Source of the DNA: a virus
DNA length: 23,052 nt
Strand: one strand, 5' to 3'
IMG/VR virus record: IMGVR_UViG_3300043639_000100
Coordinates: 1 to 23,052 of that record
The notes under the pieces: generated by a model
Databases searched by the model: none
The model's input: the letters and a program-made list of their open reading frames with translations, nothing else
What the model was told of the DNA's origin: nothing
Made by a program: the position numbers and the translations under genes
Shown here: positions 5,897 to 22,896 of the stretch, piece after piece
Position numbering within the stretch: the stretch's first letter is position 1
Layout of the letters: each line of letters opens with the position of its first letter

Positions 5897-6616
5897 TTAC
5901 CGCTTCGGAGCGGCACTCCCTTGCGGTGGGAAATAGCCCCAGCCGTACTCGGGATGAAAGCCCCAACCGCCTTCGGGCGGCGGCGGCTTGACTGCTCCTG
6001 CATCGGGCGGTGGCGGTAGCTCGATCGGATGGCTTGGTCCTCCAGGCAGTGGCGCACCACCCCAGAATCCAGGCGGAAGATGGATCGGATGCGACGGATA
6101 CCCCGGCGCTCCCGGCGGGATCACGATGGGATGCTCTGGGTGACCTGGTTGGGGCCAAATCTCCGGCGGGATCGGCGGCAGCACGATCGGATGCGACGGG
6201 TGAGCGCCTCCGCCTTCTGGGTGCCCATAACCCGGATCGACCGGGCGACCAGGATAGCCATAACCCGGATCAACCGGACGACCAGGCCAACCGTAACCTG
6301 GATCGACCGGCCGACCAGGATAGCCATAACCCGGATCAACCGGGCCACCAGGTCGACCAGGCAGTGGAGCGCCACCCCAGAAACCCGGCGGTCGACCAGG
6401 AAGCCCTTGGTCGGGATAACCAGGAAGCGGCCAAATGCCGGGAGGCACAGGCACACCGTAGCCGGGATCAACCGGCGGACGACCACCACCCCAGAAGCCG
6501 GGAGGCCGACCACCTGGAAGTCCCTGATCGGGATAGAGCGGTGGCGGAGCGATCGGATGTTCCGGAGTTCCCGGTGCTGAGACCGGAATGATCATAGCGA
6601 GGAAAGGTTGTCCCAT
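5897..6616 (-). CDS. Pro/Gly-rich tandem-repeat phage protein
   Basis: A 239-residue protein starting at ATG 6616 with GGAGG 9 bases upstream. It opens MGQPFLAMIIPVSAPGTPEH and is then almost entirely Pro, Gly, His and aromatic residues. Recurring units are YPDQGLPG, RPPGFWGGAPLPG, [HP]SHPIVLPP / SHPIELPP and four copies of PVDPGYGxPGR. There is no signal peptide and no folded domain. I recall proteins with SHPI and PDQGLPG repeats next to virion genes in other phages, which would suggest a virion or packaging-associated disordered protein, but this is memory, not a search. It ends at a strong terminator and forms its own short transcription unit. Confidence 0.8.
   Translation of the reverse strand: MGQPFLAMIIPVSAPGTPEHPIAPPPLYPDQGLPGGRPPGFWGGGRPPVDPGYGVPVPPGIWPLPGYPDQGLPGRPPGFWGGAPLPGRPGGPVDPGYGYPGRPVDPGYGWPGRPVDPGYGYPGRPVDPGYGHPEGGGAHPSHPIVLPPIPPEIWPQPGHPEHPIVIPPGAPGYPSHPIHLPPGFWGGAPLPGGPSHPIELPPPPDAGAVKPPPPEGGWGFHPEYGWGYFPPQGSAAPKR
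6224..6355 (-). repeat. Four 33-bp tandem repeats in Pro/Gly gene
   Basis: Four consecutive 33-bp units (6224-6256, 6257-6289, 6290-6322, 6323-6355) encode PVDPGYG[YWH]PGR-like 11-mers. The units differ by a few bases. The array is in frame, so unit number can change without disrupting the protein. Confidence 0.85.
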
Positions 6617-6710
6617 TTTGGTAGTCCTCCATCCATGAATTTGGAAATTTAGAACTTTACGCACGCACTTTACACGATTCTAGCGTCTGCAACAGGGACA
6701 ACGGTGCCCC

Positions 6711-6932: not shown

Positions 6933-6983
6933 AAAAAAGCGACCCGCCAAGGTGCGTCAGACAAACGAAAACCTTGGCGGGTC
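6933..6983 (-). terminator. Strong terminator closing the exosortase-type island
   Basis: On the minus strand, GACCCGCCAAGG (6983-6972) and CCTTGGCGGGTC (6952-6941) form a perfect 12-bp stem with a 19-base loop, followed by GCTTTTTT. It lies about 120 bases downstream of the PEP-CTERM-like gene ending at 7102. Confidence 0.88.
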
Positions 6984-7037: not shown

Positions 7038-7079
7038 GGCCCCACCGGCCCAGAGGTGCTGCTGAACTCCGGTGGGGCC
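7038..7079. repeat. Second perfect hairpin in the 3' region
   Basis: GGCCCCACCGG (7038-7048) pairs perfectly with CCGGTGGGGCC (7069-7079), with AGCTGA/TCAGCT partly extending the stem. No T-run follows on either strand, so it is not a standard terminator. It lies between the PEP-CTERM-like gene and the terminator and could stabilise the 3' end of that mRNA. The gap 6984-7101 holds no gene that I can support. Confidence 0.7.
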
Positions 7080-7101: not shown

Positions 7102-7767
7102 CTAGCTAACCTGCTTGCGCCGACGCCAGAACGAGAAGCCGCCCATACCGAAGGCGGCAAGCGCGCCGGGGATGCCGGCACCAACGAGCGGTCCGGGAAC
7201 TGCCACCGTCGAGATGACGATACCAAGGTTGGTATCGCCAGCAAAACCGTTGGTGGTGATGTCCCAATGCGCCGACAGATTGAACGGTGACGAGACACTC
7301 GCGAAGTCAATGAAGTCGGCACCGATAGACGTGCCACCCGTGAACGGGCCGGCCGACCGCAGCGTCACACCGTTGATGTCGGTGAAAGCTGACGACGACC
7401 ATTCCAGGGTCTGTCCGGTCACGTCGAAATGTGACAGGAACTGTTGCAGACCACTGATCCCGACGATACCGATAGCATCGACCTCAAGATGCAGGGTATG
7501 ACTCACGGTCGTCGTCGATGACACAGTGACATTTTGGGCGTTCAACAAGTCGGGTGGGGGCAGAAACCCTTGCGTCGATCCAGATACCAAAAACGAAAAG
7601 TCTGGAATCAATGCTGGGTTGATTGGGCCAACACTAGCCGATGACTGGCCGGTGTTGATCGTTGTTGCTGCACCGCCATCTTCGCTCGCAGTGAACGAGA
7701 TGGTCGCCGCCGATGCCGTTGCCATCATGGCAGCCAGCGCGACGGTCGCAAGAAGTAGTCGCTTCAT
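7102..7767 (-). CDS. Secreted protein with PEP-CTERM-like sorting tail (1)
   Basis: A 221-residue exported protein starting at ATG 7767 (GAGGT about 9 bases upstream). A classical signal peptide, MKRLLLATVALAAMMATASA, is cleaved before ATISFTA. The body is Ser/Thr/Gly-rich and beta-type with no cysteines. The C-terminus is tripartite: VPGPLVGAGIPG, a hydrophobic helix (ALAAFGMGGFSFW), then RRRKQVS. This matches the architecture of exosortase (PEP-CTERM) substrates, in the VPGP-GAG-PG variant I associate with Bradyrhizobiaceae. It would be exported by Sec, held in the inner membrane by the tail and processed by a host exosortase to reach the cell surface. It is unusual in a phage. It is the second gene of a two-gene unit closed by a strong terminator. 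No exosortase is visible in the window. Confidence 0.88.
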   Translation of the reverse strand: MKRLLLATVALAAMMATASAATISFTASEDGGAATTINTGQSSASVGPINPALIPDFSFLVSGSTQGFLPPPDLLNAQNVTVSSTTTVSHTLHLEVDAIGIVGISGLQQFLSHFDVTGQTLEWSSSAFTDINGVTLRSAGPFTGGTSIGADFIDFASVSSPFNLSAHWDITTNGFAGDTNLGIVISTVAVPGPLVGAGIPGALAAFGMGGFSFWRRRKQVS

Positions 7768-7847
7768 TTTGGGGTACCTCAATGAAAGTGAAGCTGGTGA
7801 GCCCGTGGCGCGTACGTCACGGGATGATTGTCGTTAGGCCTTACGAG

Positions 7848-8624
7848 CTACACAGGCAGGTTAGCGCCATTACGCCGACGCCGCCAGAAGTTGAGGCCAA
7901 ACATTGCGAGGGCCGCGAGGCCAGGGAGGCCGGCACCGGCGATCGGGCCGGGAACCGCTGCTGTGACAGTCGGAATCAGGAAGAATGAGTCCGGACCATC
8001 GTTCGCGCCCGAGATACGCGCGAAGAAGATCAACTTGTCACCGGCCTGGATGTCGGTGCCGAGGTTGATATTGAAACCGGACAACGTGTAGTCGGGAAAT
8101 CCGGTCCCGTTGTTGACGGATGGGATTGGCGTTCCGCCCGGATCGAACAGAGAATACTGCGCAAGCACAGTATGCTGGGTCAGGTTCAGAAGAGCAAAGC
8201 TCTCCAGAATCTGTGCTGTTCCGGTGTCATTGACGTCGACACCAACGGAGAACTTCAGGTTGATGTCTCCCAGGTTCTGCAGGAACGCCCGCAGGAACGA
8301 GCCGTCGTAGCCGATGCCCACGGTGTTTAGACCGGGGTTGGCACCACCCGATATGTTGGTCGAGAAGAAAATCGCGTCCGAGAGGTTGCCACTGTTCTTG
8401 AAGTTGGTGTAGCCGAAGGTTGCGTCTTGCTGCGGTTGGTTATCGCCGCAGATGATGCATTGGATATTTAGTGGTTGGTTGCCACCAGGCACCACCGCAT
8501 CTAGCGATAGGGTGTTACCGGTAGCAGTCCAGTTCTGACTGCCTAAGGTGACGTCCGCTTGTGCTGGCATGGTCGCGAAGGCCGTGCTTGCCAGCAGCAG
8601 GGCCGCGTAGATCGTTCTGTTCAT
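7848..8624 (-). CDS. Secreted protein with PEP-CTERM-like sorting tail (2)
   Basis: A 258-residue exported protein starting at ATG 8624 (GGAG 9 bases upstream, inside a hairpin). Signal peptide MNRTIYAALLLASTAFATMP-AQA is followed by DVTLGSQNWTATGNTLSLDA. The body is Asn/Gly/Thr-rich and probably a beta-sandwich, with one close cysteine pair (IQCIICGD). The tail is VPGPIAGAGLPGL, a hydrophobic helix (AALAMFGLNFW), then RRRRNGANLPV. The tail aligns residue for residue with that of the downstream gene, while the bodies differ, so sorting is shared but cargo is not. As with its neighbour, the likely route is Sec export, then exosortase processing by the host. Gene capture from the host is plausible. 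Confidence 0.88.
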   Translation of the reverse strand: MNRTIYAALLLASTAFATMPAQADVTLGSQNWTATGNTLSLDAVVPGGNQPLNIQCIICGDNQPQQDATFGYTNFKNSGNLSDAIFFSTNISGGANPGLNTVGIGYDGSFLRAFLQNLGDINLKFSVGVDVNDTGTAQILESFALLNLTQHTVLAQYSLFDPGGTPIPSVNNGTGFPDYTLSGFNINLGTDIQAGDKLIFFARISGANDGPDSFFLIPTVTAAVPGPIAGAGLPGLAALAMFGLNFWRRRRNGANLPV

Positions 8625-8634
8625 TCTGGAAGCT

Positions 8635-8665
8635 CCGTAGTGTGGGGTATCCACCCCTACTACGG
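8635..8665 (-). promoter_or_regulatory. Hairpin overlapping the ribosome binding site
   Basis: On the minus strand, CCGTAGT (8665-8659) pairs with ACTACGG (8641-8635), with an inner stem GGGGT/ACCCC around a GGAT loop. The last two G of the outer stem are the first two of the GGAG ribosome binding site of the gene starting at 8624. The fold could hide the site (translational control) or serve as a protein-binding operator. Confidence 0.6.
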
Positions 8666-8683
8666 TGCCGCAAAATTTACAAG

Positions 8684-16930: not shown

Positions 16931-17197
16931 TTATCCCTGACAGTCCAGCTCCACCGATCGCGGGTCGTCCGGCCGCCCCGCTGTGGTGACGCCGACGCGC
17001 AAGCCGCACCGCGTGCATTCGATGATGTAGGTGCCGCAGCGCACTGCCGGGTAAGGCAACTGTGCGGTGCAGAACCTAAAACCCTCGGCACCGCGGCGCG
17101 CGGAGGGGATGTCAACGCCGTTGGGGTAGTCGGGGTTGGGTGGGACTTGCGGTTCGCGGCCGCTGTCCAGCCATTTGATTTTGAACTGTTCAGACAT
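16931..17197 (-). CDS. Conserved zinc-binding phage protein, 88 aa
   Basis: MSEQFKIKWLDSGREPQVPP, then NPDYPNGVDIPSARRGAEGF, CTAQLPYPAVRCGTYIIECT and RCGLRVGVTTAGRPDDPRSV. The cysteine arrangement (C-x-x-x-L-P-Y-P-A-x-R-C-G, C-x-x-C-G) and the T-T-A-G-R-x-D-D-P-R-S-V end are a pattern I recall in phages of alphaproteobacteria. A single zinc site is likely. Function unknown. It overlaps the methyltransferase stop by 8 bases. Confidence 0.82.
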   Translation of the reverse strand: MSEQFKIKWLDSGREPQVPPNPDYPNGVDIPSARRGAEGFRFCTAQLPYPAVRCGTYIIECTRCGLRVGVTTAGRPDDPRSVELDCQG

Positions 17198-17783
17198 GCT
17201 GCAGCACTACCAGCTGTTCGCCGGTCTCGCAGCCGCAGCGGCAGTAGGCTCGTCCGATCCCCCTGCCGGTGGGGATCGAGTTCCAGACGTAATCGCTACG
17301 CTTGGCAGTGATCGGGTTGCCGATCAGCTGCGGCTGGCAGTCCGGCTCGATGTCCTCGATCACATAGATCCCGTTGACAGCCAGATATGGTAGCAGCACT
17401 TGCGCGCTGAAAATCTGATGCGCGGGCTCGTGGCTGCCGTCGTCGACAATGAGATCGAACCCGATGAACACGCCCGTCATTTTGAGCAGATCGTAGGCGT
17501 TGTCCTGACTGCCGTGGAAACAGCGGATGCGGTCTTCTTCGAACAGGCAGTCTTTGTTCGAGTCGAGACCACAGATCAAAGCGTTGGGGAAATATTCCTT
17601 CCACATCCGTAGCGAGTGGCCGCCACTGATGCCGATCTCCAGCACGTTTTTTACATCTTCGCGACGATCTTTGAATATTTCATGGTAGTGTTCGGTGTAG
17701 CGATGGCATGTATCACCGGCTTGCAGGTGGTCGCCACCCTTGTCGGTGCCGTATTTGCGTGCGAGGTCGCAGAGATATGTCAT
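17190..17783 (-). CDS. SAM-dependent methyltransferase, CmcI-like
   Basis: A 197-residue class I methyltransferase. Motif I is NVLEIGISGGHSLRMW (Glu49, Gly51, Gly54, Gly55), followed by the acidic residue of strand 2 in ALICGLDSN (Asp74). FDLIVDDGSHEPAHQ at 110-123 supplies an Asp-Asp-Gly-Ser-His motif. YLAVNGIYVIEDIEPD is strand 5. The N-terminal L-A-x-K-Y-G-T-D-K-G and the D-D-G-S-H motif are typical of O-methyltransferases of the cephamycin CmcI / rhamnosyl type, acting on sugars and antibiotics. A glycan substrate is therefore likely, either host or virion. It lies next to the terminase genes, not with a visible modification operon. Confidence 0.88.
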   Translation of the reverse strand: MTYLCDLARKYGTDKGGDHLQAGDTCHRYTEHYHEIFKDRREDVKNVLEIGISGGHSLRMWKEYFPNALICGLDSNKDCLFEEDRIRCFHGSQDNAYDLLKMTGVFIGFDLIVDDGSHEPAHQIFSAQVLLPYLAVNGIYVIEDIEPDCQPQLIGNPITAKRSDYVWNSIPTGRGIGRAYCRCGCETGEQLVVLQHV

Positions 17784-22374: not shown

Positions 22375-22614
22375 ATGCCTGAATATCATCTCAAAGTTCG
22401 CAAGACCCTGGCGGATGTGATCGAGATCGTCACTGCGCCAACCCGCGAGGAAGCCATTATCCAGGTGATCGACGCGGCAGGTCCGGACAATTCAGTCGAG
22501 GTCTTCACCATTCAGGAGGCGTCGACGATCGCGGGTGCTGGTACCACCGGCACCACCGGCACCACCGGCACCACCGGCACCACCGGCGGATCCGGACCTA
22601 CAGGAACTTCATAA
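22375..22614 (+). CDS. Small protein with collagen-like tail (1)
   Basis: A 79-residue protein with GAGGGAG upstream of ATG 22375. A compact N-terminal domain of about 50 residues (MPEYHLKVRKTLADVIEIVT, then APTREEAIIQVIDAAGP) is followed by GTTGTTGTTGTTGTTGG, a Gly-x-y collagen-like tail. It is a paralogue of the next gene: both have a T-R-E-A-A/E-A-I helix in the same place and a G-x-y tail. It sits 27 bases after the portal. A virion-decoration role is a guess. Confidence 0.75.
   Translation: MPEYHLKVRKTLADVIEIVTAPTREEAIIQVIDAAGPDNSVEVFTIQEASTIAGAGTTGTTGTTGTTGTTGGSGPTGTS
22543..22587 (+). repeat. Five 9-bp tandem repeats
   Basis: ACCACCGGC is repeated five times without change (22543-22587), encoding TTG units of the collagen-like tail. 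Perfect repeats point to recent slippage. Confidence 0.9.
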
Positions 22615-22626
22615 AGGAGGACGGCC

Positions 22627-22896
22627 ATGGCGACGTTTTACATCAGGCAGCGGTTGAAGGGTCCGATCGGGATCGTAACGGTCCAAGCCAATACCCGCGA
22701 AGCAGCGATTGCTATTCTCGCGCAATCAGCTGCTCCAGGGACAGAGTACGACGTGCTGGATGCTTCGACTGTTTTGGCTACCACAGGAACGACAGGTCCG
22801 ACGGCTCCATCAGGCATGACGGGTTTCGCTATGGCTGTTGATCCGACAGGTCCGACGGGTCTGACAGGTCCATCAGGTCCGACTGGTCCAGCATGA
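22627..22896 (+). CDS. Small protein with collagen-like tail (2)
   Basis: An 89-residue protein with a perfect AAAGGAGG ribosome binding site before ATG 22627. The N-terminal domain (MATFYIRQRLKGPIGIVTVQ, ANTREAAIAILAQSAAPGTE) parallels that of the preceding gene. The tail is TTGTTGPTAPSGMTG, then DPTGPTGLTGPSGPTGPA, Gly-x-y collagen-like. The DNA of this tail is not perfectly repetitive, unlike the upstream copy, so the duplication is older than the slippage there. The stop overlaps the glycosyltransferase start (ATGA), so the pair is probably co-translated with it. Confidence 0.75.
   Translation: MATFYIRQRLKGPIGIVTVQANTREAAIAILAQSAAPGTEYDVLDASTVLATTGTTGPTAPSGMTGFAMAVDPTGPTGLTGPSGPTGPA

Follow-up and report, generated by a model that had tools for sequence, protein, structure and literature searches.

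Introduction

The T5 protein Llp is a phage-encoded surface lipoprotein for superinfection exclusion, and SasX and similar prophage-encoded LPXTG proteins are phage-encoded substrates of a host sorting transpeptidase, as the proteins described here appear to be. Bacterial proteins with diverse bodies are sorted by the PEP-CTERM/exosortase system (EpsH, Xrt), in which the substrates have a signal peptide and, at the other end, a proline-containing motif, a hydrophobic helix and a basic end, and in which the enzyme, marked by the Cys, NxxR and HxxxG triad of EpsH, is encoded beside an exopolysaccharide gene (Haft 2006, PMC1569441).

The window, by which is meant the whole stretch of 23,052 bases that was analyzed, is an IMG/VR virus record, and its minus strand carries two adjacent genes for exported proteins that end in such a tail. 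A preliminary description, made from the sequence alone, had taken the two proteins for PEP-CTERM-type exosortase substrates that rely on the enzyme of the host. The core of that reading is now strongly supported, while the label of canonical PEP-CTERM is not, and the identity of both proteins as exosortase substrates, with sorting signals at their C-termini, is well supported.

Results

The window and its two genes

The genes of the window include those for a family-A DNA polymerase, a Dda-like helicase, a large terminase subunit and an SU10-type portal protein, so that it is not a contig of bacterial origin. In L037, which is closely related, synteny with the window extends over most of the region at 76-95% DNA identity, which excludes an assembly chimera for the region and contradicts the possibility, raised in the preliminary description, that the contig is chimeric at the pair. 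Chimerism or contamination was dropped as a reading since L037 keeps the region with phage flanks and the relatives have phage gene neighborhoods. Elsewhere in the window, a methyltransferase-like gene (17190-17783, minus strand; phrog_21658, with Methyltransf_24 just under the cut-off) adjoins the terminase gene, a repetitive Pro/Gly-rich ORF of 255 aa with PVDPGYGYPGR repeats (5897-6664, minus strand) has no Pfam family, and two successive ORFs (22375-22896, plus strand) have related N-termini and collagen-like Gly-rich repeat ends (TGTTGTTG and GPTGLTGPSGPTGP).

On the minus strand the gene of protein 2 (7848..8624; 258 aa from ATG) comes first, running from 8624 to 7848, and is followed by that of protein 1 (7102..7767; 221 aa from ATG), running from 7767 to 7102. 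Protein 2, a phage-restricted exported protein, has a signal peptide (residues 1-23; 8556..8624, minus strand), a beta-rich body (7974..8555, minus strand) in which alignments show an invariant CxxC (C56, C59) and conserved NGTGFPD and DGPDSFF, and a sorting tail of the form VPGPIAGAGLPG-helix-RRRR (7851..7955, minus strand), a type that also occurs in host proteins. Protein 1 has a signal peptide (residues 1-20; 7708..7767, minus strand), a body unrelated to that of protein 2, and the same type of sorting tail, VPGPLVGAGIPG-helix-RRR (7105..7200, minus strand). Both N-termini are, by eye, classical signal peptides (MKRLLLATVALAAMMATASA and MNRTIYAALLLASTAFATMPAQA), and both C-termini read VPGP(L/I)(V/A)GAG(I/L)PG, then a hydrophobic helix, then RRR(R). 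The only significant match between the two proteins is in their last 40 residues (55% identity, E 2.3e-9), and hence the tails are shared by unrelated bodies. The signal peptides noted in the preliminary description are borne out by the sequence and, for protein 2, by an N-terminal helix (residues 3-16) in the AlphaFold2 model (pLDDT 83.6), which also shows a body rich in beta structure and, near the C-terminus, a helix over residues 233-251. Its statement that the bodies are unrelated stands as well, and "nearly identical" was slightly generous for tails with 55% identity. In fold searches the body of protein 2 had no match at E<0.001; a partial resemblance to carbohydrate-binding modules was weak, lay above this limit and was set aside. 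Relatives of protein 1 were found in L035, L036 and L037 only, and in L035 and L037 they adjoin another tail-bearing gene.

The pair, described before as an island with its own hairpin and terminator, is flanked by hairpins. One is just upstream of protein 2, in its 5' leader (8632..8668, minus strand), within a stretch of 81 nt whose folding energy is -29.7 kcal/mol (z -4.9), and the other is downstream of protein 1 (7038..7079, minus strand), with 11-bp perfect arms in a 115-nt stretch that folds with z -3.3. The terminator that had been assigned to this island is unproven, because neither hairpin is followed by a T-run and a terminator scan called neither of them. The 5' hairpin was rejected as a conserved regulator, there being no general excess of folding among relatives (median z -0.1), and no sigma-54 site like that of Haft 2006 (PMC1569441) was seen by eye upstream of protein 2. 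At 6941-6983, downstream of both genes, lie the two 13-bp arms of a perfect inverted repeat (GACCCGCCAAGGT), 17 nt apart.

The tails fit the plan of an exosortase substrate, which is a motif (VPGPxxGAGxPG), a transmembrane helix (residues 233-251 in protein 2) and a basic cluster (RRRR). When compared with NCBIfam, the protein 1 tail gave 9.5 bits with the PEP_CTERM model TIGR02595, which is below the cut-off of 16, and protein 2 had no sorting signal over its cut-off, while Pfam and PHROGs gave nothing over cut-off for either protein. As the curated cut-offs are missed, the window tails are not classed as canonical PEP-CTERM. The curated models alone would sink the idea of an exosortase, and the tail was therefore tested by its distribution.

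The tail and its partner exosortase in bacteria

The DNA pattern for VPGPI[VA]GAG[LI]PG was found in seven stretches of genome_contigs, each at the end of an open frame, and all seven are in Bradyrhizobium or soil Alphaproteobacteria MAGs only. The host proteins that carry it are exported and their bodies are mostly unrelated. A divergent exosortase is encoded in two of these tail-bearing genomes. It escapes PF09721 and is only just detected by the broad signature TIGR04178, which alone touches the class; there is no specific NCBIfam model for it. Examples from Bradyrhizobium and other Hyphomicrobiales are L118:113-1093 (plus strand), L119:1471-2424 (minus strand), L131-L140 and L171-L179. In L118, which is a MAG, a small gene and then an exopolysaccharide-transport gene come after the exosortase gene.

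The tail and this enzyme occur together. Among 147 Bradyrhizobium-group genomes, an exosortase profile built from two sequences (A3) matched 20 and the tail profile (A4) matched 19, with both present in 18 genomes, the exosortase only in two and the tail only in one (Fisher p 6.6e-20). Another exosortase class, of which one example is named XrtD, is present in 19 Bradyrhizobium-group genomes, none of which has the tail (0/19). In 397 genomes of the order, the seven that bear the tail are exactly those with the seven best exosortase matches (p 3e-15, or 2e-13 once the training genome is left out), so that the divergent exosortase is encoded by 18/19 tail-positive genomes in the first sample and by 7/7 in the second. 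The residues of the triad (C, NxxR and HxxxG) are present in 20 of the 21 profile-matched host exosortases. The exosortase that the preliminary description had proposed to look for in plausible hosts is thus found in Bradyrhizobium-group and Hyphomicrobiales genomes, where it co-occurs with the tail.

Many of the Bradyrhizobium tail matches are short proteins that end in APGPIAGAGLP. The best scores of the phage tails are with the longer VPGP...LPG type, which occurs alongside the enzymes closest to A3. Phage and host tails have up to 79% DNA identity over the whole tail. Judged by its sequence and where it occurs, the VPGPxxGAGxPG tail is a real bacterial sorting signal, and that of the window is an unmodelled signal paired with a divergent exosortase rather than canonical PEP-CTERM. 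Its type suggests that the phage of the window has a Hyphomicrobiales-type host.

As a separate observation, many Bradyrhizobium genomes with a second exosortase subgroup (L145-L168) have short proteins of about 80-130 aa that end in APGPIAGAGLPxLAxGYGVYWL(V/I/M)RRRR and that are encoded, in several genomes, within a few hundred bases of the exosortase gene.

The protein 2 family

Protein 2 has relatives at 193 viral loci, the top 80 of which were retrieved, and several of their contigs have clear phage genes (terminase, tail fiber, internal virion protein, primase). A scan of genome_contigs with two motif patterns found none, a profile of the body had no match in 398 Pseudomonadota genomes (a sample without a positive control genome), and the phage isolate genomes gave no genuine relative. 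In the alignment the conserved body passes directly into differing tails, which at 69 loci were assigned to five classes of our own definition: VPGPxxGAGxPG (49), VPLPA-like (7), PEPxxWA-like (6), VPLPAVGxG (4) and PEPxSL (3). Several of these homologues are over curated cut-offs, namely that of PEPxxWA-CTERM in L062 (38.8) and L090 (41.5; cut-off 35), that of VPLPA-CTERM in L057 (28.1) and L069 (26.5; cut-off 25.35), and that of PEP-CTERM in L062, L072, L090 and L104 (for L104, TIGR02595 gives 20.1 with a cut-off of 16). The comparison with PEP-CTERM models that had been recommended therefore has two outcomes, negative for the window tails and positive for homologues of protein 2.

On a maximum-likelihood tree of the body, the tail class has to change about 14 times, and for the VPGP class well-supported branches make no fewer than 11 of these changes unavoidable. 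Such switching, as read from the sequences, would have no easy explanation if the tail had no function or were not selected apart from the body, and that it takes place among known exosortase-type signals suggests that these soil phages use the machinery of the host to place proteins on its surface. The tails might instead be plain C-terminal membrane anchors of proteins that stay in the inner membrane, for example in immunity or as lysis accessories, with no action of an exosortase. A signal peptide with a C-terminal hydrophobic helix and a basic end does also fit a simple single-pass membrane protein, and the window proteins miss the NCBIfam sorting cut-offs, but a plain anchor does not need the specific residues that the tail keeps (PGP, GAG, PG), nor does it account for a tail whose occurrence follows that of one exosortase class in two sets of genomes and whose place is taken by curated exosortase signals in homologues. 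Anchoring alone is therefore considered unlikely.

The body can be exchanged as well. In L037 the gene at the same locus, upstream of protein 1, keeps the leader and signal peptide of protein 2 (92% DNA identity, to window position 8551) and keeps the tail from window position 7958 on (77% DNA identity), and the body between them is unrelated to that of protein 2. A second tail-bearing gene is present in L035, L037, L053 and L064 (contigs or contig pairs), and its tail class is that of its neighbor; those of L053 (10759-11472, minus strand) and L064 (10096-11361, plus strand) encode further exported proteins beside a protein 2 relative.

Absence of a phage exosortase and position of the gene

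A search with PF09721 found no exosortase in 30 related virus records. This family was dropped as the test for an exosortase as it misses the divergent host class, and the absence from phages was therefore rechecked with class-specific profiles. Those of the divergent and other classes found no exosortase in 2.13 Mb of related viral sequence, a total that counts overlapping loci, takes in most or all of 16 larger contigs and comes from records that may be incomplete. This agrees with the preliminary description, in which the phage was said to carry the pair without an exosortase.

The position of the gene varies among phages, and it is found in the replication region, in the head operon, and beside lysis or integrase genes. 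In one VPGP clade it starts 15-28 nt after the large terminase gene and is upstream of a protease/capsid gene (both named from sequence), and elsewhere relatives of protein 2 are near amidase-type genes. An integrase was over cut-off in 9/50 contigs, and most relatives are without a detectable one; of the 10 contigs with an integrase match of any strength, 8 have the gene no more than 3.5 kb from the integrase (simulated p 0.0003). Given its varied position and the integrase data, the gene behaves as a mobile accessory gene of temperate and apparently lytic phages, and with such variation it cannot be assigned one time of expression. The earlier proposal of an altered lysogen or infected cell surface is kept in its wider form, as the lysogen-only picture is too narrow for a family in which most relatives lack an integrase and one clade has the gene in its head operon.

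The head-operon position of that clade and the amidase-type neighbors elsewhere would also be expected if the proteins were virion components or lysis factors and did not modify the surface of the living cell. However, heads are assembled in the cytoplasm, and a protein with a signal peptide and an exosortase tail is routed away from it. The integrase-proximal copies fit expression in a lysogen, and a gene dedicated to virion structure or lysis would not be expected in so many different positions, all of which makes a virion or lysis role improbable.

Discussion

Both genes probably encode phage-made, modular envelope proteins that are sorted by an exosortase of the host, with cleavage and surface location as predicted steps. 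Reliance on the host enzyme is supported by the co-occurrence of tail and exosortase in host genomes, by the curated tails of the relatives and by the absence of a phage exosortase. It is very improbable that these are bacterial genes brought into viral contigs through a chimeric assembly or a recent transduction event. The tails are of a bacterial type and are similar to host tails in their DNA, but the body family, with its 193 viral loci, was absent from all the bacterial genomes that were searched, one clade has the gene 15-28 nt past the large terminase gene and upstream of protease/capsid genes, and L037 keeps the region with phage flanks.

Sorting by the host enzyme would begin with the signal peptide, which would send each protein through the host Sec pathway, and the VPGPxxGAGxPG-helix-Arg tail would then hold it in the inner membrane. 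The divergent exosortase of the host (Cys, NxxR and HxxxG type) would cut off the tail, and the processed protein would be passed to the outer envelope or to the exopolysaccharide layer; in at least one host genome the exosortase gene adjoins an exopolysaccharide chain-length gene. The phage would contribute the substrate only. A phage-restricted body could be fitted with one of at least four exosortase-type tails, presumably one that suits the host, and conversely one frame of signal peptide and tail could hold unrelated bodies. On balance, a somewhat broader proposal is also favored, in which the genes form a modular surface-display cassette of soil phages with phage-only bodies, where tails would be swapped to match the exosortases of the different host lineages and bodies would be swapped within the frame.

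As to purpose, our guess would be a remodelled surface of the infected or lysogenic cell, most likely one that serves superinfection exclusion or blocks adsorption of competing phages or wasteful re-adsorption of progeny, and this is drawn from a comparison with phage surface lipoproteins, of which Ltp is an example (PMC3952083). If the modular cassette is real, exosortases are a general route by which phages remodel Gram-negative surfaces, and it reveals an undescribed pair of exosortase and VPGPxxGAGxPG signal in Hyphomicrobiales. The results point to an exosortase class and a sorting signal in Bradyrhizobium and its relatives that are unnamed in the curated libraries searched. If confirmed, phage-encoded sorting substrates would give phages a route to alter Gram-negative surfaces, a conserved viral body with interchangeable tails would be a natural experiment on exosortase specificity, and a hint of the host lineage could be read from a phage genome. 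No earlier report of phage-encoded exosortase substrates was found in the literature searched, with preprints and most subscription papers lying outside it.

Among the closest known parallels, proteins of the SasX type depend on sortase in Gram-positive bacteria, while those of the window type would depend on exosortase in Gram-negative bacteria, and we know of no repeated switching of tail class among SasX-type LPXTG proteins. Ltp of TP-J34, a surface lipoprotein for superinfection exclusion (PMC3952083), is, as is predicted for the window proteins, a small phage-encoded exported protein that the anchoring machinery of the host puts on the host surface. Ltp and Llp use the lipoprotein pathway where the window proteins have exosortase-type tails, and the exclusion role suggested here is a guess. 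With the PEP-CTERM/exosortase system itself the window proteins share the arrangement of signal peptide, proline-containing motif, hydrophobic helix and basic end on diverse bodies, together with a Cys, NxxR and HxxxG enzyme that is encoded beside an exopolysaccharide gene (PMC1569441). They differ from that system in that the substrates are encoded by phages that are without the enzyme, and in that their VPGPxxGAGxPG motif, which has no curated model, is paired with a divergent exosortase.
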